DNA from: Symmetrospora coprosmae
Lineage: Eukaryota; Basidiomycota; Cystobasidiomycetes; Symmetrosporaceae
Assembly (NCBI GenBank): GCA_008802785.1
Contig: VUYT01000029.1
Span: 176,768 to 240,767, forward strand
Length of the DNA stretch: 64,000 nt
Direction: 5' to 3'
Positions 699 to 55,516 of this stretch are shown here, in pieces. A model generated the notes under the pieces. That model made no database searches. It was not told the DNA's origin and saw only the letters and a program-made list of their open reading frames with translations. Numbering within the stretch: the first letter of the stretch is position 1; each line of letters begins with the position of its first letter. Made by a program: the position numbers and the translations under genes.

Positions 699-3600
699 AT
701 GGACACGTATGAGGAGCAGCAGGAGCATATCAGCGATCCGGACAGGGACAGGGACAGGGACAGGGAGCAGCAGGCGCGTAGCATTGAAGACGAGCTGCAG
801 GAGGACGAGGTCTTCCTCGTCCAGCTCCCGCCGAACACGCCCGCTGCCACCGACAACAACGACGACGAGGCGGGCATGAACGACAAGGAACTCGAGGAGG
901 ACGACACGTTTTTCATAGCGCACACTGCTGCCAGTGATGCAGACGGTCCTGGTCATGCACAGGGCCGCCCGCTGTTGCAGCCAGAGGATGTCGACAATCC
1001 CCTCGAGGAGGATCCAGCGTTCCTCGTCGCGTCGCTTGGTGGACAGCCACAGCTATCCCAGCTGGCACAGACACGCACAACGCATGGCAATGTGAACGAC
1101 GACGACGACGACGACCTACCAAGCGTCTCGCAGGTCTACGGCAATGTCACCAACCAGGAAAAGCACAGGCTGGACGTCTCGAATCTCCACCTCGGACAGA
1201 AGAACGACCCCCAGCGCGCAATAGGCGCAACCACCTACAGCGGCCATAGGATCGTCTTTGAGCGAAAGCTAGGCAACCGCATGATTGGCCAGGTGGGCTG
1301 GGCTGCTTCCCCCTTCTCGTATCGAGGCGAGGCGTCCTCGGCGCGACACCCTACAAACGCGTAAATGGGCGCGCGCGCTGACGCCACATTGCCGCATTGC
1401 AACGCAGACCCCAGCCCTCGGAGAAGCCGGCGACACAGACCCGAAGGCACTTGCAAAGCTCGCATTGACGCTCCTTGACGCGCCCGTGCACGTCCTCATG
1501 GAGCGCATCGAGGCCGATATCAACGCAAAGGCACTTGCAGTGGCGCAGGCGGCCCTGGCCGGGTCGGATAAGCCGGCAATGATGCTCGCGCCAGCTGCTG
1601 GCAGCAAGCATACCGCGAGGAAAGCCAAAGGCAAGGGCAGGGACGTTGACGGGGACAAGGAGACGGACACGCGCACCTGGCCAGACCGGTACAAGCCAAA
1701 GCTCTTCACCGAGCTCCTGGGCGACGAGCGCACGCACCGCCAGGCCATGTCGTGGCTGAAGGAGTGGGACTCGTGCGTCTTTCGCTCGACGCAGTCCGCC
1801 GCGGCGCGCAAGAAGGCGAGCATGAAGCGCGCGCGGGACGCCGCCTCTGCCGCTGCCTCTGCCTCGGCTGGTGGTGCTGGTTCTGGTCCTGGGCTTCCAG
1901 GGGCTAGCGAGAGCACGGACGCGCACCACCGCCCGCAGGACAAGATTCTCCTGCTGACGGGCCCGCCGGGCTTGGGCAAGACGACGCTCGCGCACGTCAT
2001 TGCCGCGCAGGCCGGGTATCGCGTCCAGGAGATCAACGCGAGCGACGACCGCACCGCAGGCGTCGTCAGAGACCGGATCCGGCAGAGCTTGGAAACGAGC
2101 TCCATCTCCAACTACCGGGTGCAGAGCGGACCCGCCGTGGCTGCGAACCTGAAGAGCAGGCCGACGTGCTTGATCATTGACGAGATTGACGGGGCGGGAG
2201 GAGGAGATGCGGTGAGCGAGAGCGAGAGCGAGAGCGCGCCCACGCAGATCGCATCCAGCAGTCCTGGTTGCAATAGGAAAGCTGATCGTGAGGGTGTTGG
2301 CAGGGCTTCATCCGGACGCTCGTCAAGCTCATCCAGGACGGGAGCAAACCGCCGTCGAAGGCGAAAGGAGGTGAGTGTCCCAGTGCCCGCTCGTGCGCTA
2401 CGTGCAACAACTCATTCTCCTTCTTCCGTCACGCTGCCGGCCAGGCAAAGGAAAGAAGGACTCGCCCCCACTCTTGCGGCCCATCATCTGCATCTGCAAC
2501 GACCTGTCAGTTTGCGTGTGTACAGCGTTCTCCTCCGTAAGTCGGTTATGCTGACCGATTCAGACGCCGCTGCTCGCAGATACGCTCCCGCCTTAAGACC
2601 GCTCCGGACCATGGCCCGCATAGTCCGCTTCCACCCGCCGACGACCGCACACCTCACCAAGCGCTTGCGTGCTATCTGTGACATCGAGGGTCTGAAAGCC
2701 GACAATAAGACGCTGACGACGCTTGTAGAAGTGGCCGAAGGCGACATGCGGAGCTGCTTGAACACACTCCAGGTGGGGCCTGCTTCCTGCAGGTGCTGCT
2801 TCTCATCACTGCGGTCGGCTGACGAGGCACTGCCTGCTTCCTGCGATGATGTGCTAAATCACCAGATTGTGCGGACTCAGAGCGACACGCTCCATGAAAA
2901 GATGATCCGATCCACCGCGCTGGGGCTCAAAGACACCGCGACGTCAGTCACTGCCGTGTGGGACAAGCTCTTCCGAACGCCGTCGAAGAAGCGCCAAAAG
3001 GGCATCGAGGAGGCCATCGGTGACAAGTACGTCAGTCCGCTCGTCAAGGACATCTCGACATGTGGCGAATACGACAAGCTGGCGCAGAGTAAGCTTCTCG
3101 CCTTGTCCTTGCTGCTTCTCTCTCTCTCACGACTCGGCGGATCGCAGCTGACGCTCACCGTCACCTACCGCACTCGTAGCCTGCTTCGAGAGCTACCTCA
3201 AAGTCAAGTCGCCCGCGGACGGCCTCAAGGCTATCAACGCGGCCTTGGAGTGGCTAGGACATTACGACCGCTTCGACCAGCAACTGCGCACAGCCCGCGA
3301 ATACGACATCATGCCATACATTCCGTATACATTTGTCGCGTGGAATCCGCTCTTTGCGTCCGTGGCAAACAAGACGCCAGAATGGCCAAAGGTTGACTAT
3401 GAGGTGCGCCTTATCAACAATAGTACACGAGCTCTGCGCAATGTTAGAGCAGCAGCTTACGCGTTCTCCTGACACTGCATCCGTCAGATGTACCTCCAAC
3501 GTACGGCACACCAGGAGATTGCGGACGCCCTCGCAAAATCGCTGCCGCTTACGCTCAAGAATCTCTTCACGTCCACATCTGTGGCATGCGAGCTGGCTCC

Positions 3601-4425: not shown

Positions 4426-5851
4426 TCATTCCTGGTTCAACGCCTGTAATATAGCATCTTCCCACGGCAGATGCGCTTTCGGCTCTTCGTTCTCAGCCGT
4501 ACTCTCGGGCTTCACTTCCCCCTTAGCTGCATGCGGGGCAGTCGCGTGCAATACTGTCAAACCGTCTTCTATAACGGACCAGGGCACAACGCCATGCAGC
4601 GGTATTGACGTGTCATCCTGTCCCTCGACGGTGCTGGTTGCAGCAGGGTCAAGTGCGTAGCCGCATTGCCGGGTCCGGACGAGCTCGACGACGTGCGCTG
4701 CACTGCCTAGAGCCTGGCCGATGTCATGGATGATGGAGCGGACGTACGTGCCGGAGGAGACCGTCATCGTGATCTCGAACGCGGGCGGTAGGGCTGGGAC
4801 GAGACGCAGGGTGGGAGCAAAGTCAGCCGGCTGCATCTGCGAGACGCATTCGCGGCGTCAATGAGGTTGCCCCAACCTTCGTTCGCCTGTTCAGTCGGCG
4901 CTACTGTTTCGGGACCGCTTGAGGTCACAATGTGCGCTTCTTCCGTTGATGTGCCAGCTGATGCATCGGATGTCGAGGCTGACGCTGAGGTAGCATTCTC
5001 CGCAACAAGCCGTTCCAGTCTCTCCATCGTCTCCCTTTCTGCGTCCGTGACCTCCCGCTCCGACCCTTTCCAGCTGTGGTCGTGTCCTTGCTTGAAGTTG
5101 ATTAGCTCGAGGTTGTATATAGTACAGTCCCGCTTCTCGATGGCTCTTGGCAGAGGTAGATTCTGGCGCGCGTAATCATACAGGGGCTTGCCATCCATCT
5201 TGATTGCCGAGTAGATTGGCGGGAGCTGCTTGATTTCGCCCCTGAACTGGTCTAGGACGGCCTCGACCTTTTCGCGCGTGACGTGCTGAAATGGCGCGCT
5301 GCGCACGCGCCGCCCGTCGGAGTCGTACGAATCGGTGGAGCAGCCGAGGAGGCCTGTTGCACGATACTCCTGAGTGCGTGTTGTGCGGGCGGTGGCGAGG
5401 GTGAGCTGCGATCCGACTGGGGCTGCACATCTAGACATGACTGACCTTTGTGCCGTGCAGGAACCCCTGCAGCTTCTTGGTACCGTCATTTAGACCAACA
5501 GCTGACAATCATTGGCAACGGAGAAGCGTCGCCTCAGCTCGAAGCGGCGTCCGAAAGTGATGTCGCAGGTGACTCACCGAGGACTCCGCTGGCGAGAGGA
5601 TCCAGAGTACCCCCCTGTCCGAGCTTGACGACGCCCACGGCCCGCCCGCGCCCGCTTATCTTGCCCCATCCTCGTCTGCGCTTCTTGTGCCCGTAGCGCT
5701 GGTTCGGGTCATCGGGCACTGCAAAGTAGGGCGACGTCTCGAGGAGCTCCTTCATCGAGTTCAGAAGCTTCATCGTGATGGCGCCGGACGGCTTGTCGAT
5801 GGCGAAAACGCCCGACAGCGGCTGGATGGCCGACGAGGTGACTTTCGGCAT
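4426..5851 (-). CDS. PUS4: tRNA pseudouridine(55) synthase, TruB/Pus4 family
   Basis: Probably converts U55 to pseudouridine in the T-loop of nuclear and mitochondrial tRNAs. The N-terminus has the TruB hallmarks: GVFAIDKPSG, then GQGGTLDPLASGVL with the catalytic Asp. After an intron comes GTKKLQGFL, then PPIYSAIKMDGKPLYDYAR, and in the last exon the SGTYVRSIIHDIG motif. At least three introns are present. Relative to bacterial TruB there is an acidic Ser/Thr-rich insert before the last exon and a C-terminal extension rich in Glu and Lys. The start (bases 5849-5851) is chosen because the conserved block begins about 10 residues later. The gene is divergent from SEC59. Confidence 0.9.
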
Positions 5852-6399: not shown

Positions 6400-9300
6400 A
6401 TGAGGAGCGCCGTCAAGGATATCTGGAGCACGCTCAGCGGGGCTCCTCCTTCCTCGTCAGCGTCCTCCGCAGCTCCAGGGGATGGCAGCAGCAGGCGCAG
6501 AGGGAGATCGTCCAAGCGACTCAAACGCGCTTCTCCCGCAACCACGGCAGCAGGATCCGCAGCAGCCGCGATATCGAGCAGACTGTACCCTGATGCGTCG
6601 TACAGCGCCGTCTTTTCGAACCGCTCATCTCCAGAGACAAGCCCGGAGCGCGCCGCCCTGACGAGTGCCAACAGCGCGCGGCCGGAGAATGAGCTCAATC
6701 TTACTAGGACGCTCACGCCGACGCTGTACAGCCGGAGAGGGCAGAGTCAGCCTACGACACGCAGGCGCTCGAGCAGGATGGAGCGTCCCGTGGTTATTCC
6801 GCGTCCATCAGCAGGCCCATCCGTCTCGCCCGTCCCTGACACGCCAGCGATGGAGAAGATGGCCTATTTCGGGTCAAACGAGTCCGAGAGGGAAGCGAGC
6901 AACAACGATGAGGATGGTGATCTCTCCAGCTCGGAGGACAGCGCAGCAGAGAACGAGCTGCTCGATACGGCACTTGGGCTCGGACAGCCGGAGCGGCAGA
7001 GCCAGAGTCAGGGCGGGAGCCAGCTGTGGCAAGATACTCAGCACAAGCCGACAGGGCCGCCTGTGACTCTCCTTGCGGACGCACTTGACGCAGGAGATGA
7101 CACAGACCGAGCCGAGACGCCGCCCATATACCCCAGCATGCTCGTCACTGAGCCAGACGAGATGCCAAACACCAGCATCGCGCCGCCACGCGCTCCGGGC
7201 AGTGTGACAGCAGCCCGTCGAGACCTGTTGATTCAGCGTCCAGTCCAGGAGCAGCCCCACTTCCGTTCAAGCTGGGAGGACTGGGAGCATGCGCTCCTGC
7301 GCCCAGCCAAGAAAGCCTCGGCGCATCAGCTGCGCTCTTCATCGCCAGGGCCGGCGTCCCTCGCAGCGCGACGCAGAGGCTCTCCAGCCGCTGGTATCAT
7401 GATCCAAGAGCACTTGCCGTCAGCCTTGGACGGCAATACGCACGATGACGGGAGAACCTCTCCGGTACCGTCATCCGCATCGCCGACCCCAGGCTCTGGC
7501 AGGGGAACTCCCACCTCGTCGCCTGCGTTGGAAGCTCGTCCGTCAAGCCCTAAGCAAACCGCGCACCGTTTATGGAGCATACGGCGCATACCATTCCGCA
7601 GCGATCTCCTGGCCGAGGTCACCCTTCTCACCATCAGTCTCCTCATTGCTGCCTATCGCCTGCAGCAATTCCGGACGCCCTTCGACGCAGAGATGAAGCA
7701 CAAGCTCACACCGATACCCCTGTCCCCTCTGGTCATGCTGCTCGTGCTCATACCTTGCGTCGCGCTGTTCCGCAGTCGACCAAGCCTCAATCTAGGAGGT
7801 CCAGATCACCAGACCGCGAGGCGCAATCTTGTCCCTGCCACAGCAGCCGGCGGGAGAGGCAGTGTGCGTCCGAGAAACAGCGATGGGCCGCACGGATACT
7901 ACATGTTCCCGTTCACGGATGAGCGAGGCTACAGGACACCCACGAGTGTGGACGACGGCTTTGCTGTGGGTGCCACCATCCCGGTCTTGCTTGCGGCGGG
8001 GTTCCTATGGGACATCGTTCGGCAGGGCAAGCGAGTAGGAGACCCCTCTCTCGGGCCCAGCGACACCTTCGGGGGTATGGCCAAGATCATGGACGTCTGG
8101 CACTCAGCAGGACTGGGACCGGAAAACACGAATGCAACCTTTTACAGCAACATGCCTGCAGGAGCGGTGCATCGCACAGTCGTCATCGCTCGCATCTCAC
8201 TCATGCTCTCCACCAGCATCAACAGCTTCATTCTCGTGCTGCAGCTGCTCCTGTCCCGCACCCTGCTGCGGGTGGACCGTCTGCCAACCAACAATACGAA
8301 ACGACTCTTTGGGGCAATGGGCGTGGCAACCCTCGTCAGCTTCACTCTCTGGACTCTGCTCGCTCTCAATCATCGTTTCGCATGGGGTGAATGCGGCTTT
8401 GCTCTCCAAAAAGCCTAATCAGTCCCTCGACTCACTGACACGAGCTTGCCAACCTCGATCTACCCTGTCTCTTCTCCGCAGCCTCACCCTATATCACTCC
8501 ATCAGAAGCTGCAGTATCGTCGTGGATCTACCAGATGTCGATGTATACGATATCAAGACTAGTACGACGCGGCTTTACGCTAGGCGAGCTCAGCTTAGCC
8601 ACGGGTTCGGGTATCTCCCTCAGTCTTGAATTCTGGCGGATCACAAAAGCCCGAGTAGGTCGATGCAGCTTGGAAGATACCGAGAACAGCAGGCTGACGG
8701 AATGATATCTGCCCGGACCAGCTGTTCTACGCACACTTTGGCGGCATCCCAGCCACCTTCCGCATGCCAACCCCTCTTATCCCATTTCATCATGTCATGA
8801 TCCCTGGCGCATTCCTCACTGGCTTTCTCTTGTCACCACTGCTTGTGCTATCGCGCAACTTTGCTCAGATGCCGAGTCATCGATTGAAGGTGGGCCACCC
8901 GCAGCCCCTGCAAGACCCAAGATTCGACAGTCCTCGTGGCAATGCCCTCCTGCTGACACTAGCGATTCCTTCTCTACAGTGGCCGCAAGAGCGAGGACGA
9001 AATCGCAAACTGGTCGCCCTAGGCAGCTTCTCCGGCTTTGTTCTCATCATCTGCCTTCCATTCGCCGGCTGGGTCGGCTGGGCGCTTGGCGGAGGTCTCC
9101 GTACACCCTGGGCATGGGGAATCCGGTACTGTGCCCTGGGCGGAGACGGAGCTGTCTCATCTGCGCGCTCTGCCGCGCGTCTGAGCGAAGAGATGGTTGC
9201 AGCAGGACCCTCAGGCTGGCGTCGCTGGAAGCGGATCCTGCTCGCGCTCTATTGGCTAGCGATTGTCGTCTCGGCTGTGGGAGGGTGGCAGACCCGACTC

Positions 9301-10243
9301 GTGCGTGCGCGTCGGATCCGCATCGCCAAAAGCAAAGCTGGGAATGGCACCGCTGCTGGCACCGTTCATCAAGGGCAGGCCAGTGCACGGGACGGCAGCA
9401 AAGGCACGGCAGATGCGATAGGCTTCCAAAACGGTCACCAAGCTGCATCTGGAGGCATTGCAGGCAAAGCGACCATCGAGATGGCCGGTGTACAGAACAT
9501 CCGCGAGAATCGAAGGATGCACGTCGCTCTCGACCTGCGCCGCAAGTTCTTTCATGCTCTGGCGGTGGTCATGTTTGTGCCCGCTATTGCCATCGACGTG
9601 GGTGACTCCTTTTCCTTCACTAATTGTCACGTATTACTATTGCTGACCTGGGTCATCCGCAGCCTGCCTTTACGTCCTTGGCTTTCTCGGTTGCCTTCGC
9701 CATCTTCTCCTTTGCAGAGTATGCGCGCTACTTCGCCATCTACCCCATTGGAGCGCCGATCCACGTCTTTTTCAGCGAGTTCATCGATTCGAAAGATGCC
9801 GGACCCGTCATCCTGTCGCATTTCTACCTGCTCACAGGGTGTGCGGGCGGTTTGTGGTTGGAAGGGAGAGGCATTATGAATTTCACCGGCGTGCTTGCCG
9901 TTGGTATCGGTGATGCCTTCGCATCGATTCTCGGTCGTAGATTGGGCACTACACGCTGGCCAGGCACATCCAAGACGATCCTTGGGACCGCGGCCTTTGT
10001 CGTCTCCATCTTTGGATCGGCCATGTTGCTGCGCGTCACCGGCATTGTCGAGCCTTTCTCCGTGAGCCAGGCCACTGGATGTAGAGCTTACAGCTGCGCT
10101 GACCTCTCTGTTGGCGATCCTAGGCACCCCGATATCTGTTTGCGACGGTACTCTCCGGCCTTCTCGAAGCTGTCTCTGCTCAGAACGATAACCTCGTCAT
10201 CCCAATCTACTTCTGGTCGCTCTTATCACTGCTGGAAGTGTGA
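6400..10243 (+). CDS. SEC59: Dolichol kinase
   Basis: Dolichol kinase uses CTP to phosphorylate dolichol at the ER membrane, supplying the lipid carrier for N-glycosylation, O-mannosylation and GPI anchors. The first exon gives a Ser/Ala/Arg-rich cytosolic N-terminus of about 400 residues, then several hydrophobic segments. The conserved C-terminal half contains RRKFFHALAVVMFVP, a segment ending in FSEFIDSKDAGPVILSHFYLLT, and the CTP-binding-type region with GIGDAFASILGRRLG and WPGTSKTILGT. The last exon ends ISVCDGTLSGLLEA and then IYFWSLLSLLEV before TGA at 10241-10243. At least four introns are needed. The ATG at 6400 is the first in the long open frame. The N-terminal extension is long compared with yeast Sec59 (about 520 residues). 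Confidence 0.88.
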
Positions 10244-10688
10244 AGTGCGCAAGGCATTACATGCCTCTGTCGCCGCTCAGGTAAAGCGCCGCCCGGCACT
10301 CCAGCAACGCGGAGTGGCCAGATGTCCCTCGGAGACAGCAGCCTTCGACATTGGGACCTGGTCCCCATGCGATGGCAGTTCTGCCGCGGTTCACCGTCAA
10401 CACGAGACGGGCACTACGAGCCATTTCGACTTGTTGGAAGTCAGGCCTTCATGCAGGTCTCGCTGGAATCCTTCGCGAGGTACACTTGCCAGCTGTCCAG
10501 CAGCATGCGCCAAAGCATGCAGGGTCCCCGCCGTAAGTCTGGATTCCACCTGCGGACATGCACCGCCTTTCTGGTCAAACGAGGTGGCAAAGGACGGGCG
10601 TGCTGAACGACGCAGCGCACAATGCGATCACGGCTGCAAGCTTGGCTCCCTGCCGCTATCGCTCAACCACGTATCGCGTCGCAGAGTC
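10244..10688. other. Intergenic region between SEC59 and the first CAAX gene
   Basis: About 445 bases. An ATG-started frame of 94 codons (10322-10606, plus) exists but shows no recognisable motif. I call no gene here. Confidence 0.4.
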
Positions 10689-10696
10689 TATATAAG
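10689..10696 (+). promoter_or_regulatory. TATATAAG box directly before a start codon
   Basis: A good TATA box match sits 5 bases before the ATG at 10701. If it directs transcription, the mRNA would start downstream of that ATG and translation would begin at an internal Met, for example the in-frame ATG at 10749. Confidence 0.4.
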
Positions 10697-10700
10697 CAGC

Positions 10701-11138
10701 ATGGCTCGCTCATCTTCGGCTACGGGTGGACGACACATCCCGCTTCAGATGCAGCAAATGCGTCAACAGCAGCTCGCCGGCACGCCAGTCAGTATGCAGC
10801 ATCTCATGATGAGCCCTATCAGTACGCCCAGCAGTCCACGGAATGCAAGCTCGCAATTCGGTCATCCTCCTCCCTCTCCTCGCTCGGCAGCTTCAAGCTA
10901 CGGCGGCAGCGGTCACTCCTCCTCTCGCCGCGGAGGTACCTTGCCAATGCCTGTCCAAAGTACAAATCACATGAGGCACAACCAAGATGGACTGCAGATG
11001 CCTGAGAGCCCCTTCGGTGGCATGCAGGGCCGCACAGGCGCCATGCACCGGAGCAATCAGGCTACGGGACAGCGAGACGACTCGGAAAGTGAAGGAGGCA
11101 GCGGTTGCTGCTGCTGCTCCAAGTGTGTTATCTCCTGA
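10701..11138 (+). CDS. Small Ser/Pro/Gln-rich protein ending in CVIS CAAX box (first of three)
   Basis: A 145-residue single-exon frame with no recognised domain. It is rich in Met, Gln, Ser, Pro and Gly (QQMRQQQLAG, ISTPSSPR) and ends in an acidic Ser stretch, then GCCCCSKCVIS. The last four residues form a CAAX box; Ser at the end favours farnesylation. The four adjacent cysteines could be palmitoylated, as in Ras tails, so the protein is probably membrane-tethered. There is no signal peptide or membrane segment. Two similar genes follow on the same strand. An in-frame Met at residue 17 is an alternative start because a TATA box abuts the first ATG. The frame is open far upstream, so an upstream exon cannot be excluded. 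Confidence 0.65.
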   Translation: MARSSSATGGRHIPLQMQQMRQQQLAGTPVSMQHLMMSPISTPSSPRNASSQFGHPPPSPRSAASSYGGSGHSSSRRGGTLPMPVQSTNHMRHNQDGLQMPESPFGGMQGRTGAMHRSNQATGQRDDSESEGGSGCCCCSKCVIS

Positions 11139-11581
11139 TATGTACATCAACCTAGCGGGCTATGCCCGGGCATCACCACGTTACTGTCCGATCCGCGACC
11201 AGCGCATGCCCATGTCCTGCGACTTACAGTCAAATCGCTTCCGCACGGGTACGGTGCCCTCTAACGCTTCTACTGTCAGCAGCTGCTTCCAAGCAGGCAG
11301 GTCTTGAACTGCGAGGGTTGACTCCCGTCTGGCGAAAAGCACCGCCCCGACCGGTCTACGGTTTGACGAATGAAGGACAGAGTGCAGGACCACCCAGTAC
11401 TTGAAGCACTTTGCCGTCCGCTCTGCCTTGTCTCGCTCTCCCCAGCTGGTCATCTCTACACCCATCCGAACCACCCTAGCCTCTCCCGCTGTCTACAGAC
11501 CCCGTGCCGGACTGCTTACTTAGCCTGCTCAGCCTGCACAGACCTTCAGTAGACAACACCAAGCTTCAACGCATTCCGAAA
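11139..11581. other. Intergenic region between CAAX genes 1 and 2
   Basis: About 440 bases, pyrimidine-rich towards the 3' end. Short overlapping frames only; nothing recognisable. Confidence 0.4.
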
Positions 11582-11995
11582 ATGGCACCTCCTCCATACC
11601 AGCCGCGTACTCCCGGCAAGTCGCAGGTCCCAGGATTCGCCACGGGCTCGCCCGGCGCATACGTTCCCGGCAGCTTCCCCAACACGCCAGGCCTCCAGCG
11701 CAGCATGATGGGCGGAGCGAGCGCTCCTGGTACTGCTGCGCAGGGCTACCCGGGATAGTCCGGTCTTCCAGGCGGTCAGCAGGAGCCGCCGCAAGCGCTG
11801 TTTGTGATGAAGTCTCGCCAGGACCCGACCAGCCCTTTTGCATACAAGGTGCACCTGGACGGCAATGACCCAAAGAAGGGTCTGGAACAGGCTCTCCAGC
11901 ATGTTCGCGCCGAGGAAGCGCGGGCTAGGAGGGAGAGAGAACAGGAGCAGATGGCGTACGAGAGCGATGAAGGATGCTGCTGCGTTATCGCCTAG
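11582..11995 (+). CDS. Small Pro/Gly-rich protein ending in CCCVIA CAAX box (second of three), with in-frame TAG or tiny intron
   Basis: The ATG at 11582 opens a Pro/Gly-rich frame (PPPYQPRTPG, PGAYVPGSFPNTPG). A TAG at 11756-11758 interrupts it, yet the same frame continues to a convincing end: a charged helical stretch rich in Glu and Arg, then DEGCCCVIA and a stop at 11993-11995. The CAAX box CVIA with preceding cysteines matches its two neighbours. A candidate intron 11730-11771 (GT at 11730, TTCCAG at the end) is 42 bases, a multiple of 3, and removes the TAG while keeping frame; the product would be 123 residues. The other reading is a CAG-to-TAG nonsense change. No known domain is visible. 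Confidence 0.55.
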
Positions 11996-12550
11996 GATTA
12001 CGGATTGTCCGCTCGATAAGTAGACAAGGAAATGAACCGATGACCGGACTAGGATATCAATTGATGACCGGACTTCAATGTCGTCCTGTGCGCTGCTCGC
12101 AATTGCAGGACGTATCTATACTCTGCATAGATCTGAGCCAGGTCTGCGCTTTGCGCTTCTGCCTCGCGCCATTGCGGCGATCGCCTTGACCCTGTCTTGC
12201 ACGGCGCTGCAGATGTGGTCAGAAGCGCATCGTCTGTATGCGAGAGCCATGCGGGCGCGCAGGAGTCACGCAGCTTGTGGTCAGCATGCATCAGCTGACG
12301 CGGGTCTGACAACCCGGGTTGTGCTTGTTTAGATCGCCACCGGACAGCGCCCCGACGTACACAATGGCCAGACAGGGTTACGCGCTTCGGTGCGGCATGA
12401 GACGATCAACCGATGCGTCGCTCGCTGTTGCTTGACTTCCATCTGCACGCACCGATATCCGAACCCCTTCTCCCGCATCCTTCGCTCACGACAGCTCCTT
12501 TTTTTGGGTAACAGATCCGTTCGACAAGCCCTAACACGTCAGTGCACGAC
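11996..12550. other. Intergenic region between CAAX genes 2 and 3
   Basis: About 555 bases. A CTAAC branch-point-like element followed by CGTCAG lies 7-20 bases before the ATG at 12551, suggesting a 5'-UTR intron or an upstream coding exon of CAAX gene 3. No other gene is seen. Confidence 0.4.
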
Positions 12551-12871
12551 ATGCAGTACGCGCTCTCCCCGCCGCAGCCGATGGTAGCTGTCCAGCAGCC
12601 CTTCATGGTCCCAGGCGGCGGGTACCATCCAGTTGGTGCATACATGCCCGGGTCGCCGACCGTGATAGTTCCGGGTTCACCCAGGAGCCGCAACGGCCAT
12701 CACCCACACCCCAGTGGTCGAAGACGCCAGCCGCGATCGCGCGATGCCCGAAGCCGAGCTCATGATGATGAGCAAGCGCTGCTCGCGGAGCAGATGCAGA
12801 TGGCGCAGATGGAGGCGTCGATGGCGCAGGGCAACGCAGACAAGAGCAGATGCTGCTGTGTTATTTCGTAG
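12551..12871 (+). CDS. Small Gln/Met/Pro-rich protein ending in CCCVIS CAAX box (third of three)
   Basis: A 106-residue frame with no recognised domain. The N-terminal half is rich in Pro, Val and Gly (GAYMPGSP, VIVPGSPRS), then a basic His/Arg/Ser stretch (GRRRQPRSRDARSR), an amphipathic Gln/Met/Ala/Glu stretch, and finally DKSRCCCVIS before the stop. This repeats the layout of the two upstream genes: disordered Pro-rich body, charged segment, Cys cluster, CAAX. Farnesylation plus palmitoylation is inferred. A branch-point-like CTAAC and CAG just upstream of the ATG suggest that an upstream exon exists, so the N-terminus may be incomplete. Confidence 0.6.
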   Translation: MQYALSPPQPMVAVQQPFMVPGGGYHPVGAYMPGSPTVIVPGSPRSRNGHHPHPSGRRRQPRSRDARSRAHDDEQALLAEQMQMAQMEASMAQGNADKSRCCCVIS

Positions 12872-13023
12872 TAGCATCGATGAGACTTCGTGATGATCGT
12901 GCCGTAGGCGAGCATCCATCCCATCTTGAATGACCGTTGGCGCCTCTATCGCGAGCATTCTGCACCCCTGCCTCCGTGCGTGCCTCTGTCGCGGTCGTTG
13001 ATCCTCCTCGGATCTATGGCGAC

Positions 13024-13275
13024 ATGGAGGTAGCCGTGCGAGGCTGTGCTCACACGTCTGCGGTGTCGTGCGATAGCTGCTTGCTGTTCCGACAGATGCC
13101 TGGCGAGAGTTCAGAGAGCATGACGTCGATGCGAGGACCGCGGATATTTGTCGTGTCGCAGGACCGGACTGCATTGATGGGGGCGAATGAACAGCCACAG
13201 CCACAAGTGCGACTGCCCAGCGAGAGCATGCTTCTGAGCGAGCAAGATCAGTCTTTGTTGCGCGGGAGTGATTAG
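13024..13275 (+). CDS. Possible 83-residue hypothetical ORF
   Basis: An ATG-started frame between CAAX gene 3 and YKT6. The C-terminal half (ANEQPQPQVRLPSESMLL, then SEQDQSLLRGSD) has a protein-like composition, but there is no CAAX box and no known motif. The opposite strand is also open. Weak call. Confidence 0.2.
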   Translation: MEVAVRGCAHTSAVSCDSCLLFRQMPGESSESMTSMRGPRIFVVSQDRTALMGANEQPQPQVRLPSESMLLSEQDQSLLRGSD

Positions 13276-13285
13276 ACATTGTTGG

Positions 13286-13304
13286 GGCAGGCAGGCAGGC
13301 AGGC
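13286..13304. repeat. GGCA tetranucleotide microsatellite
   Basis: Four full GGCA units plus a partial one in the 730-base stretch between CAAX gene 3 and YKT6. Apart from the weak ORF at 13024 and a heptamer repeat near YKT6, this stretch holds nothing I recognise. Confidence 0.8.
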
Positions 13305-13566
13305 CATGCTCCAGCTGGAGGGTCAGTTTGTCATCAGTTTGTCAGTCGTCAGTCACTTCAGTCGAGACAGAGCGCAGCAAGCTAGCAGCAGTGGACCATT
13401 CCTTTCCATCACACCATGTCGAGCATCGGCATATCGCATCGTGTCGCGTTGCTATTTGATGCACATGTCGTCATCCAGCCACACCCGGTGTGGGCGGGCT
13501 GGACGGGGAACAGGGGGACAGGAGGAGGGTCACCTTCCTACCATCACCACATCACAGCACGCAGCG

Positions 13567-13594
13567 CATAGCACATAGCACATAGCACATAGCA
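13567..13594. repeat. (CATAGCA)4 heptamer repeat just before YKT6
   Basis: Four exact tandem copies of a 7-base unit end 8 bases before the YKT6 start codon, in its presumed 5' UTR or core promoter. Confidence 0.85.
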
Positions 13595-13602
13595 TAGACA
13601 CC

Positions 13603-14692
13603 ATGAAGATCCTCCACCTCCAGCTCTTTTCAAAGTCGGCCGACGCCAACAGCTCGGTCCCGCTGGCCCACGCTTCGGAGCTGTCGCAGTTCTCGTTCCT
13701 GCAGCGAGGGAGGTGCGCTACCGCTACGAGTGCGCTGTGATGATGGTGCATGCGGTATGGGCCATGCTGATTGATATGACCTGTCTTCTCCAGCATCCAG
13801 GAGTTCTTGAACTTCTTCAGCAAGACCGTCTCGGAGTGAGTGGCGGCGAGGATACACACATGGCTACAGGACAGGCTGAAGCCCGCGACGCTGTGGCCTC
13901 CCATGATGCTGGTCGGTGCCGGTGCTGACGCTGATGCTGATGCTGATGCAATGCTCGTCCACGCTCGGCCTCGCTCGCTCGCAGCAAGACGCAAGCAGGG
14001 CAACGGCAGTCGATCCGCGAGCAGACGTACACGTTCCACGTCTTCTGCATCCCCAACACGGGCGACCTCTCTGCAGTCATGGTGACGGACGAGGAGTACC
14101 CCGTCCGGGTGGCCTTCAGCGTGCTCAACAAGATCACGGACGAGTGGCAGCAGACGTTCCCGAAGCAGAGCTACGAGGCCGACGTCACCAACGCCCGCAT
14201 CTCATCGCCCACCGCGCCCAGTGCCAGGTTCAGGGAGAAGGACTGGCCCGCACTCAATACGTACCTGCAGAAGTACCAGGACCCGAAACAGGCAGACACC
14301 ATCATGAAGGTCCAGCAGGAGCTCGACGAGACAAAGATTGTGTTGGTGCGTGGAAGGCTCGCTCGGACTCACTCTGGCTGACAGCTGGATGGTTATCTCC
14401 GTGCAATAAGAAGAATGCTGACTTGTGTCTCTCTCTCGTACGCTCGTCCAGCACAAGACGATCGAGTCCGTGCTTGAGCGAGGCGAGAAGCTCGACAGTC
14501 TGGTCGACCGGTCCAACGCGCTCAGCGCACAGAGCAAGATGTTCTACAAGACGGCAAAGAAGGTGGGTGTCTGGCCTTCTGCGCTATGTGCGCTTGCACA
14601 CTCGCCGAGACGAAGTCTGACACGGGCCTGTCTGTTCCCTGGTCTCTCCTCGCGTCGCTCCACAGCAAAACTCGTGCTGCGTCGTCATGTAG
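13603..14692 (+). CDS. YKT6: Synaptobrevin-type R-SNARE Ykt6, lipid-anchored
   Basis: Ykt6 is an R-SNARE for ER-Golgi, vacuole and autophagosome fusion; it has no membrane segment and relies on prenyl plus palmitoyl anchors. The longin domain begins [11 protein letters not shown] and continues through [30 protein letters not shown], and a region ending in [10 protein letters not shown]. The SNARE motif follows as two exons ([15 protein letters not shown], then [20 protein letters not shown]) and [16 protein letters not shown]. The last exon encodes only QNSCCVVM, the expected CC-a-a-X end (CCAIM in yeast). Five exons; the intron after SKTVSE holds a GCTGAT repeat (13924-13948). The length fits the family (about 200 residues). 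Confidence 0.93.
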
Positions 14693-29911: not shown

Positions 29912-32900
29912 CTACGCGCCTCGACCTCTTCCACCGCGTCCGCCTCGACTTGCACCGCGTCCGCCACCTCCACCGCGGCCACCGCCTCGTCCGCCTCGCC
30001 CTCCACGACTTCCTCCCGCCTCCCCAGCGCGCTTTTTGTCCCTGGTCCGCTCGATCTCCTTTGTCCTTGCAAACCGCTTCTCCTCGTGCCGCTCTTTCTC
30101 GAGGCCAGCGGTGATCCTGTTAATCTTGCCCTTGTACTCTGCATCCTTCTCGCGCTGGATCTTCTGCCGCTCGCCCGCGAGGAAGCGGTTGTCCTTGCGC
30201 AGCTCGCGCACAGCGCCCTTCCGCTCCTTCTTGACGAGCGCCTTGAGCTTGGACGCCTCGTTGCGCTCGCTGTCTGGGTCAAAGCGGCGCCCCGGTGCGT
30301 AGCCCTCTTCGAACTTGGGCAGGAACGACGGGATTGGGATCGGCTTGTGTGATTGCAGCGTCAATGGACGTCGAGCTTGGCGAGAAAACTTGAGCATACG
30401 CCCAAGGCTGTCCGATACAGACGAGAGCTTGCGCTGTGGACGTGTAGATGGACCGCTCAGCTCGCAATACAGGACAGACCGCATCAACGTCGTGACTCAC
30501 CTGAACAGATGGTGGAAGCTTGACCAGTTCAATGCTCAACAAGGAGCGCAGTATCGGATCAAAGAGCTCAATGAAGGCTGGCAGGGTGTTGTATAGACCC
30601 GAGAACTCGGAGATGAGAGTGATGGCGATCTTTGCGAGTCCAACGCGCGCGGCTCCGGCGTCTGCTGCGCCATGAAGGAGCTGGAGGAGGTCGAGTTCGT
30701 CTGACCGCGTATCGTCGTCGGCTTCTTGGAGGCGCAGTAGAGTCCCTACGTCCTCCCTATCGAGGTCAGGCATGGGGTAGCTGCCGTGCTCGAGCGGTAC
30801 GGCCGGCTGCATCGGGAATAGCAGAGCAGCTGCCTGAGCGAGGAAGTTGACGGCTTCGGGCACAACACGCTTCGACATGCTCTCGTACTGCAGCGCAAGG
30901 GTGCACAGGAATAGGCCAGATGCCAGATCCGAGAGTGTGCGCAGCCTGCACTGGCCCAGATACTGCGAGACGAGAAGCAGCGCAGGCGCAGCGACCACGT
31001 GGGAGAAGTCGCTTGTTGAGAAGACGACGCCGACAAGGCGCAGCAGAGCAAGCTCTCCCGGGCCAGGCCAGGTCTTGGAAGTCGGCAATAGCGGCCCCGA
31101 GGCGAGTCCACGTGCGAGATTCTTCTGCATCAGGGTGAGCTTTGACACCACGGCATTGCTGAAGGTGATGGGGAAGGACTGGGACAGAGCCATGATGTGT
31201 GGCAGCAAGGCACTCGAGGCGGCGAACGAGGATGTTGCAGCCGTGTAGAGCAGATGATCCACCAAGACGGTGAGGAAGGTCTAGCACAAGGCAGAAGGAT
31301 CAACATCAGTTCGTCGAAGGTATCGTCGCATGCTTCGGCTGGGAACACGCACCGCCAGCTTCTGCTTGTTCCCCTCGGCCAAAGAAGGGTGATAGAGCGT
31401 CCGGATGCGCTCGATGACGACCGGCAGATCTTGCTCATCGGTCCCATCAAGGAGATCCAGCAGCTCCTCATGTGTCGCCGGACACGGAAAGGTGTATGGC
31501 AGCTCCTTGCGCGAAGTGGTGGCCCGCTTGCCCTTTCCCTTGCGAGCCGGCTTCACAAGTGCCGATATGGCATCCTCGGCCCCCTCCTCCTCCGCACTGA
31601 GCTCATCCCCGTGCAAGAGGTCAGCCAGCATCTCATTTTCATCCTTCTCGCTCCCAACATCCGACTCCCCGTCTTCCTCCTCGTCCTCCTCCTCTCCTTC
31701 ATCGTCTTCCTCAGATTCTCCCTCAGCCTCGAGGTCGCCTTCATCGCCCTCCTCAGCCTCCTCTGCTGTGTCTTCCACAGCTAGGCCACCTCCGAGCCCA
31801 AATCCGCGGACTTCGTCTCCCTCGAAGTTGAAGTCATCCCCAAGATCATCGCCCTCAGCTCTCCTCGCGCTCTTTCCCGCTTTGCTCTTCTTCCTCTTAT
31901 GCGAGGAGAGCTCGTCGTCAGAGCGCTCCGCATCGTCGGAAGCGCTGTCGTCCTCCTCGCCCCGCATCCGCTTGAGACGCCGCAATTCGCTCTTTTGCAG
32001 CTGCGCGGCAGCTTCCTGCGCGACCTCTGCGGGCGTACGGAGTCGGTCGCTAGGCGCTGCACGTTTCTCGAAAGCCAGCTCGCGGACGAAACGGTCGTAC
32101 GGATCGTCCGTGTTGGCCTCCGCGACGTCGTCCTCCTCGGTACGGCGGTGCCGGCGACGGAGGGGGACGGTTTGCTCTTCTGCATCGTCCTCTGCATGGT
32201 CGACATCGCCGATGTCGGCGCCGAGCAGCCCGGCCAGGAGGGAGCGGTCCACGCCGGAAGATGCGGTGCCGGACAATCCAGCAGTGCCGTCGCTGTCGAC
32301 AGGCGCCTTGACAAAGGTAAGCTTGATGCCACTCCCGCTTGGTGCGGGGTGTGATGGCGCGGCTTGGCTGGCTAGCGTCGTGTCTGCTGCCTGGGCTTCT
32401 GCATCTCCTGCTGAGCTAGCGTCGCTGCCATCGTCAAGCTCCCCGTGATCAGACCCTGCATCGTTGTCGTCTCCCTCTTGATCCTCGTCATCCTCGGCTT
32501 CGTTCTCCTCCTCGCTCTCGTTTCCATCCTGTGCATCTGATGCCTCGGGAGCATCCGAAGCTGACGGGACGAGGACGGCTTCCTCGCCTCTAAGCTTTGG
32601 CGCGGCAGACGTCGACTCGCCTGTCCGTGAGCGGAGATTTGGCGCGCCCAGCAGAGCTCGGATTCCAGCAAGATCATCGTCAAGGGCAAGCCGGATCTCG
32701 TCATCCTCTGTCCGGACACGTTGACGCTCGTACTGCGGCGCATGAGAGGCTAGATAGTCAGCACAAGTGAGCGGATACCTCGAGCGATCGTGGCACAGCC
32801 TGACCTTGTAAGCCTTTGATTTCGCAATGACCTCCTCCATGACTTCGGCTCTGCTCTTCTTGCGCTGGGGACCCGCATCGGCCGCATCTCTGCCCGCCTG

Positions 32901-33775
32901 GTCACCGCCGCCTTCAAGTGCCAGTGCTCCCCTCGCGGCTGGCCCGGGTCTGCCACTCTTCTGAAAGAACTCCTCCTGGTCCGGGAGGGCGCCTCTGACG
33001 CTGGCCAGGCTCTGCCCAAAGTGGGTGAGCATGTCGCCGCCATTGTCGTCGTCGCCTTCGCCGAGCAAGCCTAGCCCATTCTCCTCGTTGTCTCCGAGGT
33101 TGAACAGAGCTGCTTTGCCCGCTCGACGCTGTCGCTCAAGGGCAAATCGCTGGATGGCCTTCTCTTCGGGCGTCAGACTGGCGTCACCCTCGCCGAATCG
33201 GCGGTCGACGACCCCGCCGCTCCTGTCGCGGTCGAGTAGCTGGGGCAGAAGTGTCTTCTTGCGCTGAGGGCAGTACCATATGCAGCATCAGCGCTCACAC
33301 TGCGGAAGAATATGCAATCCGCCACTGGAATTTAGGGGAGGCTAGTCTGGACCCACGTTTTCGATGCCGACCTGGCGTGAGAGCCCCGGCCGCCCGGTGC
33401 TCCCCTTTAGCGGACGTGCGCCTAGAATGGCATGCTTGGTCTTGGATGTCTTGACGTCGAACGAGTTGAGGGACTGGCTGATGGCCTGGGATGGGTAGCC
33501 GCAGAGTCAGCTCTCAGCTCGCGGCTCTACCCTGCTCACAGCAGGCTTTGCGGTGAGCGGCTCCAGGCATCCGCTAACACTACAGCCGCCATTACTATCG
33601 TCTATCCACCCACCTCGAGCTTCTTCTTGCGAGCATCCGGGTCGCCCATTGAAGATTTCGCCTTTCCGCCGCCGCCGCCTGCCCGCTTCTTCTTGCTGCC
33701 GCTGCTGTTGCTCCTGGCCAGTCCGGCGCCATGGATGGCCGACTTGAGCTGTGTGAGCTGTGATCCGCCGGCCAT
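29912..33775 (-). CDS. NOP14: Nucleolar protein 14, SSU processome component
   Basis: Nop14 is needed for 18S rRNA maturation and 40S subunit assembly in the nucleolus. The N-terminus starts MAGGSQLTQLKSAIHGAG and is Lys-rich. Next come SLNSFDVKTSKTKH and the Nop14 signature of RRFGEGDASLTPEEKAIQRF with FALERQR. The middle is very acidic (several Asp/Glu/Ser runs between 31600 and 32550) with conserved islands such as DDPYDRFVRELAFEKRAAPS. The C-terminal half continues through NPVVPAQ and a segment starting KPIPIPSFLPKFEEGYAPG, then ends in a Lys/Arg helix and a Gly/Arg-rich (RGG) tail before TAG at 29912-29914. At least five introns, including those around 33270-33360 and 33500-33600. The RGG tail is an elaboration not seen in yeast Nop14. 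Confidence 0.92.
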
Positions 33776-40610: not shown

Positions 40611-43400
40611 TCACAGATCGTCTTCTTCGGTCTCGCTCGGATCCTCGTCGTCTGGAATTGTGCTGCCGATCTTGACGTTGACCCAGCTCTCCTTGAGCCT
40701 GACTTTGGGCTTGCCCTTGGGCGTCGAGCAGTCCGCTCCTTCACAGAGCGGCGATGTGCATCGGCTGGGCGTGGCGGTGGCCTTTGCTCCAGTAGGCGGC
40801 GTCGAGCAAAGGGCACCGCAGGGGAGTTGCTCGTCTCGGCTGCAGCCGCATACAGATGGCGACTCCGACCCGCACTCTCTCTCCTTGCCCTTGCCCTTGC
40901 CTGCGCCCATCCGCCTGCTCTGAGAGTACCCAAAAGCGGGCGAGGCAGCCGCCGAATGCGAGATGAGGTACTCTTCTGACCGCCCAGCAAGGCCCCCGTC
41001 CTCCTCCTTGCACCATTCTGGGAGCTCGTCCGCGGCGAGGCACGCCCAGTCCGGCTGATACAGCTCGATGAAGAGCTGGTCCATGGCGCGGGACTTTGGG
41101 AAGCTGAACTTGCGGTACTCTTCGAAGATGGCGGTCGACGACCAGCACTGCATCTTGCGGAGGCAGCCGACGAGGCAGCCCGTGCGGTGCTGTGGATGAC
41201 AATGCGAGTCAGCGGCAAGTCAACAGGATCAGCGTGAGGGAACATCGCCCACCTTGCCCTTGTTGCAGTGAATCATGATTGGGTGATTCCGCTTATCGAG
41301 GACGATCCTGAGTGCATCCCGAATCTTTCCGTCTGGGATATGGACGAATGGCTCCTTGTTTCCCGGAATGCCAATCTGGAAGAACTGGATCCCATCTTTC
41401 TCAAAGAAGCTCGCATTCTCCTGCGAGTACTCGTCCTGAACAAGCGTGAGCACTGTGCGGAGCCTCAGCGAGCGCAGGAATGGGTAGTGCGCTTGGGAAG
41501 GGAAGGACGAGCGGTAGACTCCGGGCGCAACCATGGCGAAGTTGTCGGGCGGGCAGAGCAATGGGACCGTGACCGGTTCGAAGGAGCCGTCGCCCGGGCT
41601 GGGGCTCCGGCTGTACGACGTCGAAGTGGACGACTGCCGAGTGAACGCCGGTGCTGCTCGCAAAGGGAGATGAGGGAAGGCGGCGAAGGGCGCGGGGCTG
41701 TCGAGCAGACTGCCGGCATGCGGGACTGCAGACGGGCCCCGTCTGCGCTGCTGGGGACCCTGTTGCGGTTCCAGGTCCAACTCCGGCTCCGAGGTAGCCT
41801 CTCCCCGTCTGGCGCCATCGTGCCCCTGCAGAACCTGTCCACTGGCGCTGCGTAAAGTCGGCGTGGGAAAGGGAGGCGAGACTGCGCCGGACGCCGACGC
41901 GTCCGATGGACTGCTCGTGCTGGCACTCGCGTACGAGAAGGCACTGAATCCTCCCGGGCTGGTACCCGGTGTCGACGCCGATGCCGCAGACACGGACGCG
42001 GCGGATGGCGAGAGCGCGGCGTATGGCAGCGTGGCCGTCAGGGCTTGCGACGTGCTGCTGGCCGTTTGTGCGGCGATGCTTGGCTCCGAGTGCACATCGC
42101 GGAGTGCGCCTGACCCGCTGCTCCTGCTTGCACCCCGGCTCCTGCCTCCGCTGCGGACCGTGTCGTAACTCCTGCTCTCTACGAGGCTCGGTGCGAAGGG
42201 CCCAGGTTGAGCGTAGCCTGCAGTAGGCAGATCGAGCGATGGTGGCGGCAGCGTCAGAGGCAGGAGCTGCGGCTGCTGACGACCGTTTCGACTAGGAGTC
42301 CGATGCGCGAGAGAGTCGAACGTCACTGGCGAGGTGGTCGCGCTGCTGCTCGCGCTGGCGCTGTGCCTCCCGTCGCTAGCCTCTGCGCCCTCTCTGCCCG
42401 TGCTGCTCGAATCGTAACTCCATACTGAGCCGTGCCGGGGCTGATGGTGGCGTTGATGCGCACGCTGCTGCTGCGACGATTGGTGATGGACTGGGTGCGG
42501 CTGCGTGTAGAACGGCATCGTAGGCGAGTAATAGTACGATGACGAGGTGGCTAATCGCGTGTCTGTGCCACCTGTGAGGGGCGAAGCGGGGCCGTAGATC
42601 TGGAAAGTGCTCCGGAAGGCCGGGCTGGGGGCCGAAGTCTTTGACATAGCAGGCTGACTCTGCTCCGTCCCTGTATGCAAAGCACCTCCAGGGGCGCGAA
42701 TACCGCGCCCGCGCCCCGTGGTGGCCGACGAGGACGAAGCGACGCTCTCGGATGAGGAAAAGCCGTCGAGTGACGAGTCGGTTGCAAAGTCCAGGGCGGG
42801 CTCGGAGGTAGACGACGACGCCGTTGTGGCTGTCGACGTCGTCGTCGACGTGGCCGTGCCTGCGCTCTTGGTCGACGAGGCATTGGAGGCGCGGCTCGAG
42901 ATGGCAGTGTCGTTGTTGGATGTGGTTGCTGACTCGGCGTTATCGGGCCCGGTCATTGCGGCCACGGCCGAAGTCAGAGCGGCTATCGGGGTCGACTGCG
43001 ACTGCTTCGCCATTTCATTCGTGTCGGGGAAGTGTTCTGAGGTCGCTATGGCTTCGCTGCTCTTTGCAGCTGCGGCATTGCCTCTGGCTGACAATGTCGT
43101 TTCTGCATCTTTGGGTCGCTCCTGCCCAGTCGCTGCCGATTTGAGCTGCGCCGCGAGGTGCTCCGGTGCGTCCGGACATCTGTCGACACTGTGCGTGTGG
43201 TGCTGCGGGATGCCGTCGCGACGGACGTGAGGCGGCGAAGCCTCGCCCTGACTCGCCGGTGCCGCGTATGCGCCGGGGTCGCCGCCTGAAGGCGCCTGCC
43301 GTGCGCCGTCACCCTGGACAGATTCGGCCTCAGTGCGCCGCTGCCGTCCCGCATAGATCTTGGCCAGGAACGGCGGCGTGTACGTCTGTGTGTGACCCAT
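40611..43400 (-). CDS. SIW14: Siw14-like atypical dual-specificity phosphatase with long disordered N-terminus
   Basis: Plant-and-fungi atypical dual-specificity phosphatase; yeast Siw14 cleaves the 5-beta phosphate of inositol pyrophosphates. The catalytic domain starts at about residue 610 with VPLLCPPDNFAMVAPGVYRS, followed by FLRSLRLRTVLTLV and IQFFQIGIPGNKEPF. The signature loop HCNKGKHRTG (Cys and Arg of HCX5R) is built across a roughly 62-base intron, then LVGCLRKMQCWSSTAIFEEY. The C-terminal tail is rich in Lys, Ser and Cys and ends in SETEEDDL. The N-terminal 600 residues are Ser/Thr/Ala/Pro-rich low complexity, unlike yeast Siw14 (about 280 residues). The start at 43398-43400 is the first ATG of a long open exon. 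Confidence 0.82.
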
Positions 43401-43573
43401 CCTGCTTCCTGTGTGTTCTGCTACGGGCGGAGGATGCCAGCTGGCCGCTTGTCCGGCCTGTGTCGTCGAAGGCTGGCTGGTCGGCGTGGCACCTGAGCGG
43501 CAGCAACGCGTGCACGCTGGTATTCAGTATGCCCTGCTCAATGTACGCTCCCTCCTGCTCCCTCGTAGCCGTA

Positions 43574-54005: not shown

Positions 54006-55516
54006 CTAGACGCACCACTCCTGGCGCACTTCCTCCGGCCATCCGAACGCGAAGCTTCCCGGCTGCAGCCGCAGATTGCGTTCGTGCGCATATGCCTTTA
54101 GCACAAACCAGGATTGCCAGAGAGCCGCGCGCTCGATGTCGTCCTCGTCGTCGTCCGGAGGCCCCAGGTAGGCGTAGGCGTCCACGCCCACCTCGAGCGT
54201 CGATAAAGCTGGTAGACTGTGCTGCTCCGCGAGAAAAGCGACAAGTCTGTCGAGCTCGTCCAATTCGCGCACCGAGAGGGCGAGACGTGCGATCTGAAAT
54301 GGCAGACGGTTCCAGGCGTCGTCATGGAGTGCGACATCGGATTGGAAGTGAACGAGCTTGTCCAGCCTCAAGATTGGGTCGATCCGGAAAACTGCCGCAG
54401 CGCCGAGATACTCGAGGGAGAGGCCTTGCAGCTTGTCCAAAATGAAGTCGGGTATCGCCATGCAGAGTTCGTCGCTGAGCATCTCCGACCTGATCTTGAG
54501 GCCTGTGATGTCTGGCGAGTTCCGAAGGAGTGCAAAGAGGATGTCTTGGACCTCCTGCACTGCTTCCTGCATCGAGGCATAGCAGCTTGGCAGCCGCAAA
54601 CTACCCCAGGTATCGATATTGACGGGCCTGAAAGCGAGATCGAGATAGCGGAGCTTGGGGAGTGCTGCGCGGACCTGCTTGTCAAACCAGTTCCTGCTTG
54701 GCAAAGGCGTCGATGCATGCGCGAAGTGAGTGAGATGCAGTGTCTCTAGATGGGGCAGCCGGATCGATAGCAGGGGCGCAACAGATGTTGCCATGTCAAT
54801 CTCGACGGTGTTGATGCACCAATCGAGCGTGTTGAGCTGTGGAAGTTGCTCGAGTCGGGCGCAGACTCGCTGCATTGCCGGGAGCAGCGCTTGTGTTGCC
54901 AGCACCGACCATCGCGTGAAGTTCAAAGTGACGACGCTGACGTTCTCGCAGGCTTCGAGTAGGGGCAGGATGTGCTGGTCGATCCCGATATCTCCACAAA
55001 TGCGCAGGTTGAGGGTGCGCACCATCTGCGCAAGGCGCAAGCGTGAGGCGTGGCCGGCGTGCCCCTGATTGAGGGACAGGGTCCGACGCTGCAACTCGAT
55101 GGATTGCCTTACATCGACCGCATCGGGTACCGCGTATTGGACGGCCGTGAAGTGCGATACGTGCCTGAAGAGCAAGGGCCGAGCGAGCGACTCGAAGCGC
55201 CTGGACACGAGGGACAGCGAACGCAAGGTGCGGAGCTGCAGAGGATCCTCGAGGAATGCCGCGCCAGGGAACCGGCTGGACCACTGAATCTTCAGGTCGG
55301 GCTGAGCGAAATGTCCGAAGACCTCCGAGATGAGCTCGTCCGGGAGGCGTGGAATCCTGTCATTCACAGAGAGGATCAGCATTTGTCGAAACACACTGCC
55401 GGATGCGCACGCCCTTACGGTGCACTTCATTCTTGCTTCTCCCTGATGCGTTTCGAGCGGCGGCGTACTGATATCGCCGAAGCGTCGAGCGCGTCGACCT
55501 TGCGATGGGGCGCCAT
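54006..55516 (-). CDS. F-box-like protein, paralog 3
   Basis: Third family member, with the clearest F-box: IPRLPDELISEVFGHFAQPD, then LRSLSLVSRRFESLARPLLF and RHVSHF. The Leu-rich body runs through LEACENVSVVTLNF, LEQLPQLNTLDWCI, LPHLETLHLTHFAH, LPKLRYLDLAFRPVNI and KLQGLSLEYLGA, to an acidic DDDEDD segment and GWPEEVRQEWCV. Two 5' models: an intronless start at 55430 or 55382, or exon 1 at 55437-55516 (MAPHRKVDALDASAISVRRR, then SKRIRE) joined by a GC-AG intron of 80 bases (55357-55436). The second puts a phase-2 intron exactly where paralogs 1, 2 and 4 have theirs and gives another basic MAP N-terminus, so I prefer it. Confidence 0.68.

Follow-up and report, generated by a model that had tools for sequence, protein, structure and literature searches.

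Organization of the locus

The window analysed is a stretch of 64,000 nucleotides from Symmetrospora coprosmae (contig VUYT01000029.1, positions 176,768–240,767 of the forward strand), and all positions given here are counted from its first nucleotide. Three small plus-strand frames, named ORF1, ORF2 and ORF3, follow one another in this window, each ending in a cysteine cluster and a CAAX box (Table 1). The first-pass annotation had described three such frames with these same ends, and they were found, ending at positions 11138, 11995 and 12871. Its treatment of ORF2 as intact is contradicted by an in-frame TAG codon, which divides this frame into two parts. The ORF1 product is rich in serine, glycine, glutamine and proline, with its cysteines confined to the tail, and has an alternative start at Met17 (position 10749). 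The TATA-like hexamer in front of ORF1 is the only match to TATAWA on the plus strand between positions 8001 and 15500, and four matches are present on the plus strand of the whole window. Its function is putative, and at six bases from the ATG it is unusually near for a TATA element, so the true start of ORF1 may be Met17. The start codon of ORF2 is in a good context (AAAATGG).

The gene upstream of ORF1, which we take to be dolichol kinase (SEC59)-like, codes for a hydrophobic, probably multi-pass protein, with hydrophobic stretches seen in 8698–9876. It gave no match in Pfam, and a search of the PDB with region 9690–10055 returned an unrelated enzyme at a best E of 0.12. A candidate frameshift in this gene, which would have hinted at an error-prone assembly, is accounted for by the second of its introns. 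Without meeting a stop, the ORF1 frame covers 504 codons (9624–11138) that reach into the SEC59-like gene, and retention of the same intron would fuse the two in frame, probably by chance.

The downstream neighbour of ORF3, absent from the first-pass annotation, is, as judged from its sequence, an orthologue of YKT6, a lipid-anchored SNARE. Splicing with exon 3 beginning at 13997 gives an uninterrupted protein, an earlier start of this exon at about 13985 being possible by sequence. In the PDB it matches a YKT6 chain of known structure with an E of 1.4e-48, and it contains the Longin and Synaptobrevin domains of Pfam, both above cut-off. Its last exon codes only for QNSCCVVM. Head-to-tail units of about seven bases, resembling cacatag, were noticed by eye at 13560–13598, directly 5′ of the YKT6 ATG in the presumed 5′ leader. 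From the SEC59-like gene to YKT6, successive coding stretches are separated by gaps of 457, 443, 555 and 731 bp.

Table 1. Features of the locus, in window positions.
Feature	Position	Strand	Description
SEC59-like gene (presumed)	8698–10243	+	hydrophobic, probably multi-pass; introns 9598–9662 and 10062–10123
TATA-like TATATA	10689–10694	+	six bases 5′ of the ORF1 ATG; putative
ORF1	10701–11138	+	145 aa, ends CCCCSKCVIS
ORF1 tail	11106–11135	+	CCCCSKCVIS
ORF2, whole	11582–11995	+	137 codons with internal stop, ends CCCVIA
ORF2, first part	11582–11755	+	58 codons (58 aa), Pro/Gly-rich
ORF2 in-frame TAG	11756–11758	+	splits ORF2
ORF2, second part	11759–11995	+	includes stop codon; 78 codons to 11992; first Met at 11807 gives 62 aa
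ORF2 predicted strands	11792–11809, 11837–11854	+	in second part
ORF2 predicted helix	11870–11962	+	residues 38–68 of second part
ORF2 tail	11975–11992	+	CCCVIA
ORF3	12551–12871	+	106 aa, Pro/Gly/Arg-rich body, ends CCCVIS
ORF3 predicted helix	12746–12826	+	residues 66–92
ORF3 tail	12851–12868	+	CCCVIS
YKT6 orthologue	13603–14692	+	five exons, tail QNSCCVVM
YKT6 exons	13603–13712, 13794–13835, (start ~13985 to 13997)–14345, 14452–14562, 14666–14692	+	

Elsewhere in the window, Pfam recognises an AAA ATPase with an RFC1-like lid below cut-off (1285–3393, plus strand) and a TruB pseudouridine synthase (4767–5489, minus strand). Nop14 (in two frames) and Y_phosphatase2 are also matched, at 30282–33287 and 41232–43523 on the minus strand. 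Two minus-strand frames are F-box-like, the one at 54009–55754 below cut-off and the one at 62262–63479 above it. The minus-strand frame 58771–60231 has a weak match to TB2/DP1/HVA22, an ER-shaping family (E 1.5e-05, 25.3 bits for a cut-off of 27.2). Rfam at gathering threshold and the tRNA search each gave zero hits in the window, and the scan for bacterial-type promoters and terminators is uninformative for eukaryotic DNA.

The interruption of ORF2

As sequenced, ORF2 would yield at most the 58-residue fragment of its first part or the 62-residue product of the internal methionine, barring a sequencing error, a variant, readthrough or an atypical intron. Introns that would remove the TAG were sought with lengths of 35–200 nt, a donor within ORF2 5′ of the TAG and an acceptor up to position 11899. 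There are 17 in-frame GT–AG candidates, none of which has a GTGNGY donor or any of six branch-point-like motifs. A donor of this type is present in all six introns placed in the two neighbouring genes, and an intron across the TAG is unlikely. The TAG may reflect a sequencing error, strain variation or a dying gene, or it may be read through or spliced out atypically.

Clustering of the CAAX tails

Four of the 2862 stop-terminated frames of the window end in the strict CAAX pattern C[VIL][VIL][SAMQC]. All four are on the plus strand and have their ends between 11138 and 14692, in a single run of 4 kb made up of ORF1, ORF2, ORF3 and a short frame, ending in QNSCCVVM, within which the last YKT6 exon lies. 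The strict pattern is expected 1.0–1.2 times per 64 kb by chance alone, so one end of this kind would carry little weight. For ends of the type CVI[SA], three are observed per 64-kb window, compared with 0.04, 0.05 and 0.00 expected from Markov sequences of window length and of order 1, 2 and 5, respectively (100 each, n = 300). This bears out the earlier view that a C-terminal signal common to the three frames is very unlikely by chance. When at least three cysteines in the last ten residues are required as well, none of the 300 Markov sequences contains such an end, as against three in the window. A looser pattern, C[ILVMAT][ILVMAT][SAMQCTLFN], is found in eight frames of at least 30 codons, namely ORF1, ORF2, ORF3 and five others scattered elsewhere in the window. 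Among the 1020 frames with 40 codons or more, 15 have at least three cysteines in the last ten residues, and of these only ORF1, ORF2 and ORF3 have a CAAX end as well. The cluster of CAAX tails at this locus is real and rather striking.

The adjacency of YKT6, its position on the same strand and its separate tail exon are what would be expected if the three tails descend from YKT6, a copied QNSCCVVM end-exon having provided neighbouring frames with a ready CAAX end. The codons of the tails speak against this: those of ORF1, ORF2 and ORF3 (TGY GTT ATY) are closer to one another than to those of YKT6 (TGC GTC GTC ATG), and we regard such a descent as improbable. The valine codon is GTT in all three tails, a codon that makes up 11% of the valine codons in the genes used to train the codon score described below; this was spotted post hoc.

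Coding potential and kinship of the three frames

The codon score was trained on 4175 codons from eight frames, among them one that has only the below-cut-off F-box match and one (6400–8415) that has no Pfam match, and was compared with 71 shadow ORFs. Codon bias is weak in the window, which makes the test low in power. The scores of the first and second parts of ORF2 are reached by two and three of the 71 shadow ORFs, respectively, and are gene-like. The score of ORF3 is middling (reached by 15 of 71), and that of ORF1 is reached by 28 of 71 and surpassed by the +2 frame of ORF1 itself. When only synonymous choices are scored, the corresponding numbers out of 71 are 1 and 25 for the first and second parts of ORF2, 12 for ORF3 and 31 for ORF1; by this measure the second part of ORF2 is unremarkable. 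Judged by overall codon use, coding is favoured for ORF2 and unsupported for ORF1, with ORF3 in between. The bodies preceding the tails contain neither cysteine nor tryptophan in their own frame over 135 (ORF1), 131 (ORF2) and 100 (ORF3) codons, whereas the five alternative frames of the same stretches contain 2 to 13 cysteines. This is moderate evidence only, because among open windows of matching length in the 64 kb, 9–20% lack cysteine and 5–10% lack both cysteine and tryptophan.

With the tails removed, the best local alignment score is reached by 12–19 of 500 shuffles for ORF2 and ORF3, by 29–40 of 500 for ORF1 and ORF2 and by 143–194 of 500 for ORF1 and ORF3. With the tails kept, these numbers become 2, 1 and 111 of 500, respectively. 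A search for DNA repeats, spanning only 10200–13650 and with the YKT6 tail outside it, gave two that ORF2 and ORF3 have in common near their ends, of 23 and 18 nt and 83% identical. The first is mostly the tail itself, and pairs so short can arise by chance. The first-pass annotation had spoken of a family. On these sequence comparisons, a single family would rest mainly on the tails; the similarity of the bodies is marginal for ORF2 and ORF3, the kinship of which is plausible, and weaker for ORF1.

These results may also be read to mean that only some of the frames are real, ORF1 and perhaps ORF3 being chance open frames and the tail being partly a coincidence or belonging to the decayed copy of a single CAAX gene. 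The unremarkable codon scores of ORF1 and ORF3, the weak similarity of the bodies and the stop in ORF2 all agree with this, and overlapping long open frames are common in the GC-rich window. However, CVI[SA] ends with so many cysteines were absent from every simulated sequence, and the gaps of 443–731 bp between coding stretches are gene-like; we consider this explanation unlikely, while giving it some weight. ORF2 is an interrupted gene and ORF1 a weakly supported one, within a real cluster of tails.

Predicted structure and database comparison

None of the four pieces (ORF1, the two parts of ORF2 and ORF3) matches any Pfam family at E up to 10, longin, synaptobrevin and GTPase domains included, in agreement with the earlier statement that no known domain is present. 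No transmembrane-like stretch is seen in ORF1, ORF2 or ORF3. The AlphaFold2 single-sequence model of the second part of ORF2 has a strand-strand-helix arrangement predicted with moderate confidence (mean pLDDT 68.8, pTM 0.41). The single-sequence model of ORF3 is mostly unstructured, with one helix (mean pLDDT 57.4, pTM 0.20). From the end of the predicted helix to the CAAX cysteine there are 11 residues in ORF3 and 7 in ORF2, as measured in these models of low to moderate confidence; farnesylated CAAX proteins have about 11 flexible, hydrophilic residues ahead of this cysteine. The earlier description of the bodies as disordered agrees with the residue composition of ORF1 and the first part of ORF2, and with most of the model of ORF3. 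In the second part of ORF2, by contrast, two strands and a long helix are predicted.

When the model of the second part of ORF2 was compared with the PDB using Foldseek, 64 matches were obtained at E up to 10 and none at 0.001, the best having an E of 2.0. By sequence, the same part, the only one searched against the PDB, gave a coiled-coil-like chance match at a best E of 0.36. Relatives of ORF1, the second part of ORF2 and ORF3 were absent from a collection of viral contigs, and relatives of the second part of ORF2, the sole query, from prokaryote genome contigs; both collections are non-fungal and say little. The frames had been called unmatched to any described family, and this holds within Pfam for all pieces and within PDB sequences for the second part of ORF2, a scope that excludes fungal proteomes. 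Among the papers listed by full-text literature searches, none was recognised as describing this gene set. The accessible part of PMC4894686 holds no list of small CAAX proteins, and the letters CCCVIA occur once in PMC3340392, a whitefly transcriptome.

Comparison with known CAAX proteins

Like YKT6, the three products have adjacent cysteines before an aliphatic aaX end and no transmembrane segment. They differ from it in lacking the longin and synaptobrevin domains, in having serine or alanine instead of methionine at the last position and in the extra cysteines of the cluster, which in ORF1 is separated by SK from the CAAX box. In CAAX tails of the Ras type, an S-acylated cysteine lies upstream of the box. 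The three tails resemble them in having a cysteine cluster near the predicted farnesylation box, after a linker that may be flexible, the best fit being CCCCSKCVIS of ORF1; no GTPase domain is present in ORF1, ORF2 or ORF3 according to Pfam. The likeness to Ras tails, already drawn in the first-pass annotation, is incomplete, and the adjoining YKT6, with its CC-aaX end, is the closer analogue of the tails. FBXL2 has a CAAX box of the same CVI type, CVIL (accessible part of PMC9141697). It differs in its LRR domain, which ORF1, ORF2 and ORF3 do not have.

Small CAAX genes in tandem are a pattern of pheromone loci, and the three frames might be precursors of mating pheromones, arranged as in the pheromone/receptor loci of basidiomycetes. 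Farnesylated pheromone precursors are short, have a single cysteine at the CAAX box and are linked to a STE3-type receptor. ORF1, ORF2 and ORF3 share with them the small gene size, a CVIA-type end and the tandem layout, but are longer (145, 137 with the stop, and 106 codons), have tails with 3–5 clustered cysteines instead of one and, in two of the three, a predicted helix before the tail. No receptor gene was seen either. Nine of the 11 open frames of the window with at least two hydrophobic stretches were scanned (6877–7266 on the minus strand and 32415–32537 on the plus strand being left out), and none matched Pfam with an E of 0.01 or less; the scan could miss genes divided by introns, and a receptor may lie beyond the 64-kb window. 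CVIA is also the end of yeast a-factor (accessible text of PMC1175975). Nothing like the three-copy motif of the h-type precursor, as given in the accessible part of PMC3068285, was found by eye in the three frames. Taken together, a pheromone function appears very improbable.

Proposed lipid anchoring

In the reading we prefer, to which we assign a probability of about 0.62, ORF1, ORF2 and ORF3 are tandem same-strand genes for small peripheral membrane proteins, which would be farnesylated and S-acylated and act at the cytosolic face as tethered adaptors or scaffolds. Each protein would consist of a low-complexity body, two to four cysteines and then CVIS or CVIA, and in ORF2 and ORF3 a predicted helix precedes the tail. 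FTase would most likely farnesylate the CAAX cysteine, after which the three terminal residues would be cleaved off and the new end methylated. Upstream cysteines would subsequently be S-acylated, with palmitate as the obvious acyl group, holding the proteins at an endomembrane or the plasma membrane. These lipid steps are the most likely ones from established knowledge of CAAX processing, and the tails are most naturally read as signals for anchoring by a farnesyl and probably an S-acyl group, much as the first-pass annotation had suggested. The adaptor or scaffold role is suggested, indirectly, by the combination of a low-complexity body with a membrane anchor.

In CVIS, CVIA and CVIS, the first two positions after the cysteine are aliphatic and the last favours FTase. 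GGT1 mainly prefers leucine or methionine at the last position and FT accepts many residues (PMC1175975, accessible text), so the serine or alanine of the three tails fits FTase. Ykt6 was earlier described as farnesylated and reversibly palmitoylated, with the palmitate proposed on the upstream cysteine (PMC7696345, in part). According to the accessible part of a 2025 paper on mammals and budding yeast, this upstream cysteine is geranylgeranylated by GGT3 after farnesylation; GGT3, which is Ecm9-Bet2 in yeast, contacts Ykt6 at its amino-terminus (PMC12001115). FBXL2 is recognised by GGT3 via the LRR domain (PMC9141697, in part), and its status differs between the accessible texts, being a GGT3 substrate in PMC9141697, while Ykt6 is called the sole protein substrate in PMC12001115. 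The Ykt6 amino-terminus (longin) and the FBXL2 LRR domain both lie outside the tail, and no Pfam domain was found in ORF1, ORF2 or ORF3; a GGT3 route is unlikely for them because GGT3 contacts domains that they lack.

A bolder proposal is that the three genes form with YKT6 a lineage-specific array of four CC-CAAX genes with a common lipidation route (farnesyl, then possibly GGT3-dependent geranylgeranyl on the adjacent cysteine), which would tune the membrane cycle of YKT6. We hold this to be very improbable. If true, it would add to the very few known substrates of GGT3, and the array would exemplify genes brought together by a common lipid anchor.

Known fungal CAAX proteins are mostly GTPases and pheromones, with a few SNAREs and chaperones. 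ORF1, ORF2 and ORF3 would be new, possibly lineage-specific, CAAX proteins, with a function suggested by their build and an anchor mechanism that would itself be ordinary. Encoded beside YKT6 and with no domain that can be recognised, three adjoining small CAAX proteins of this kind would add new clients to the prenylation pathway. The locus would also make it easy to test whether genes with a common anchor can come together at one site. Should the three proteins be conserved, they are candidates for adaptors tethered to a membrane; otherwise, they may reveal how new genes acquire a lipid-anchor tail.
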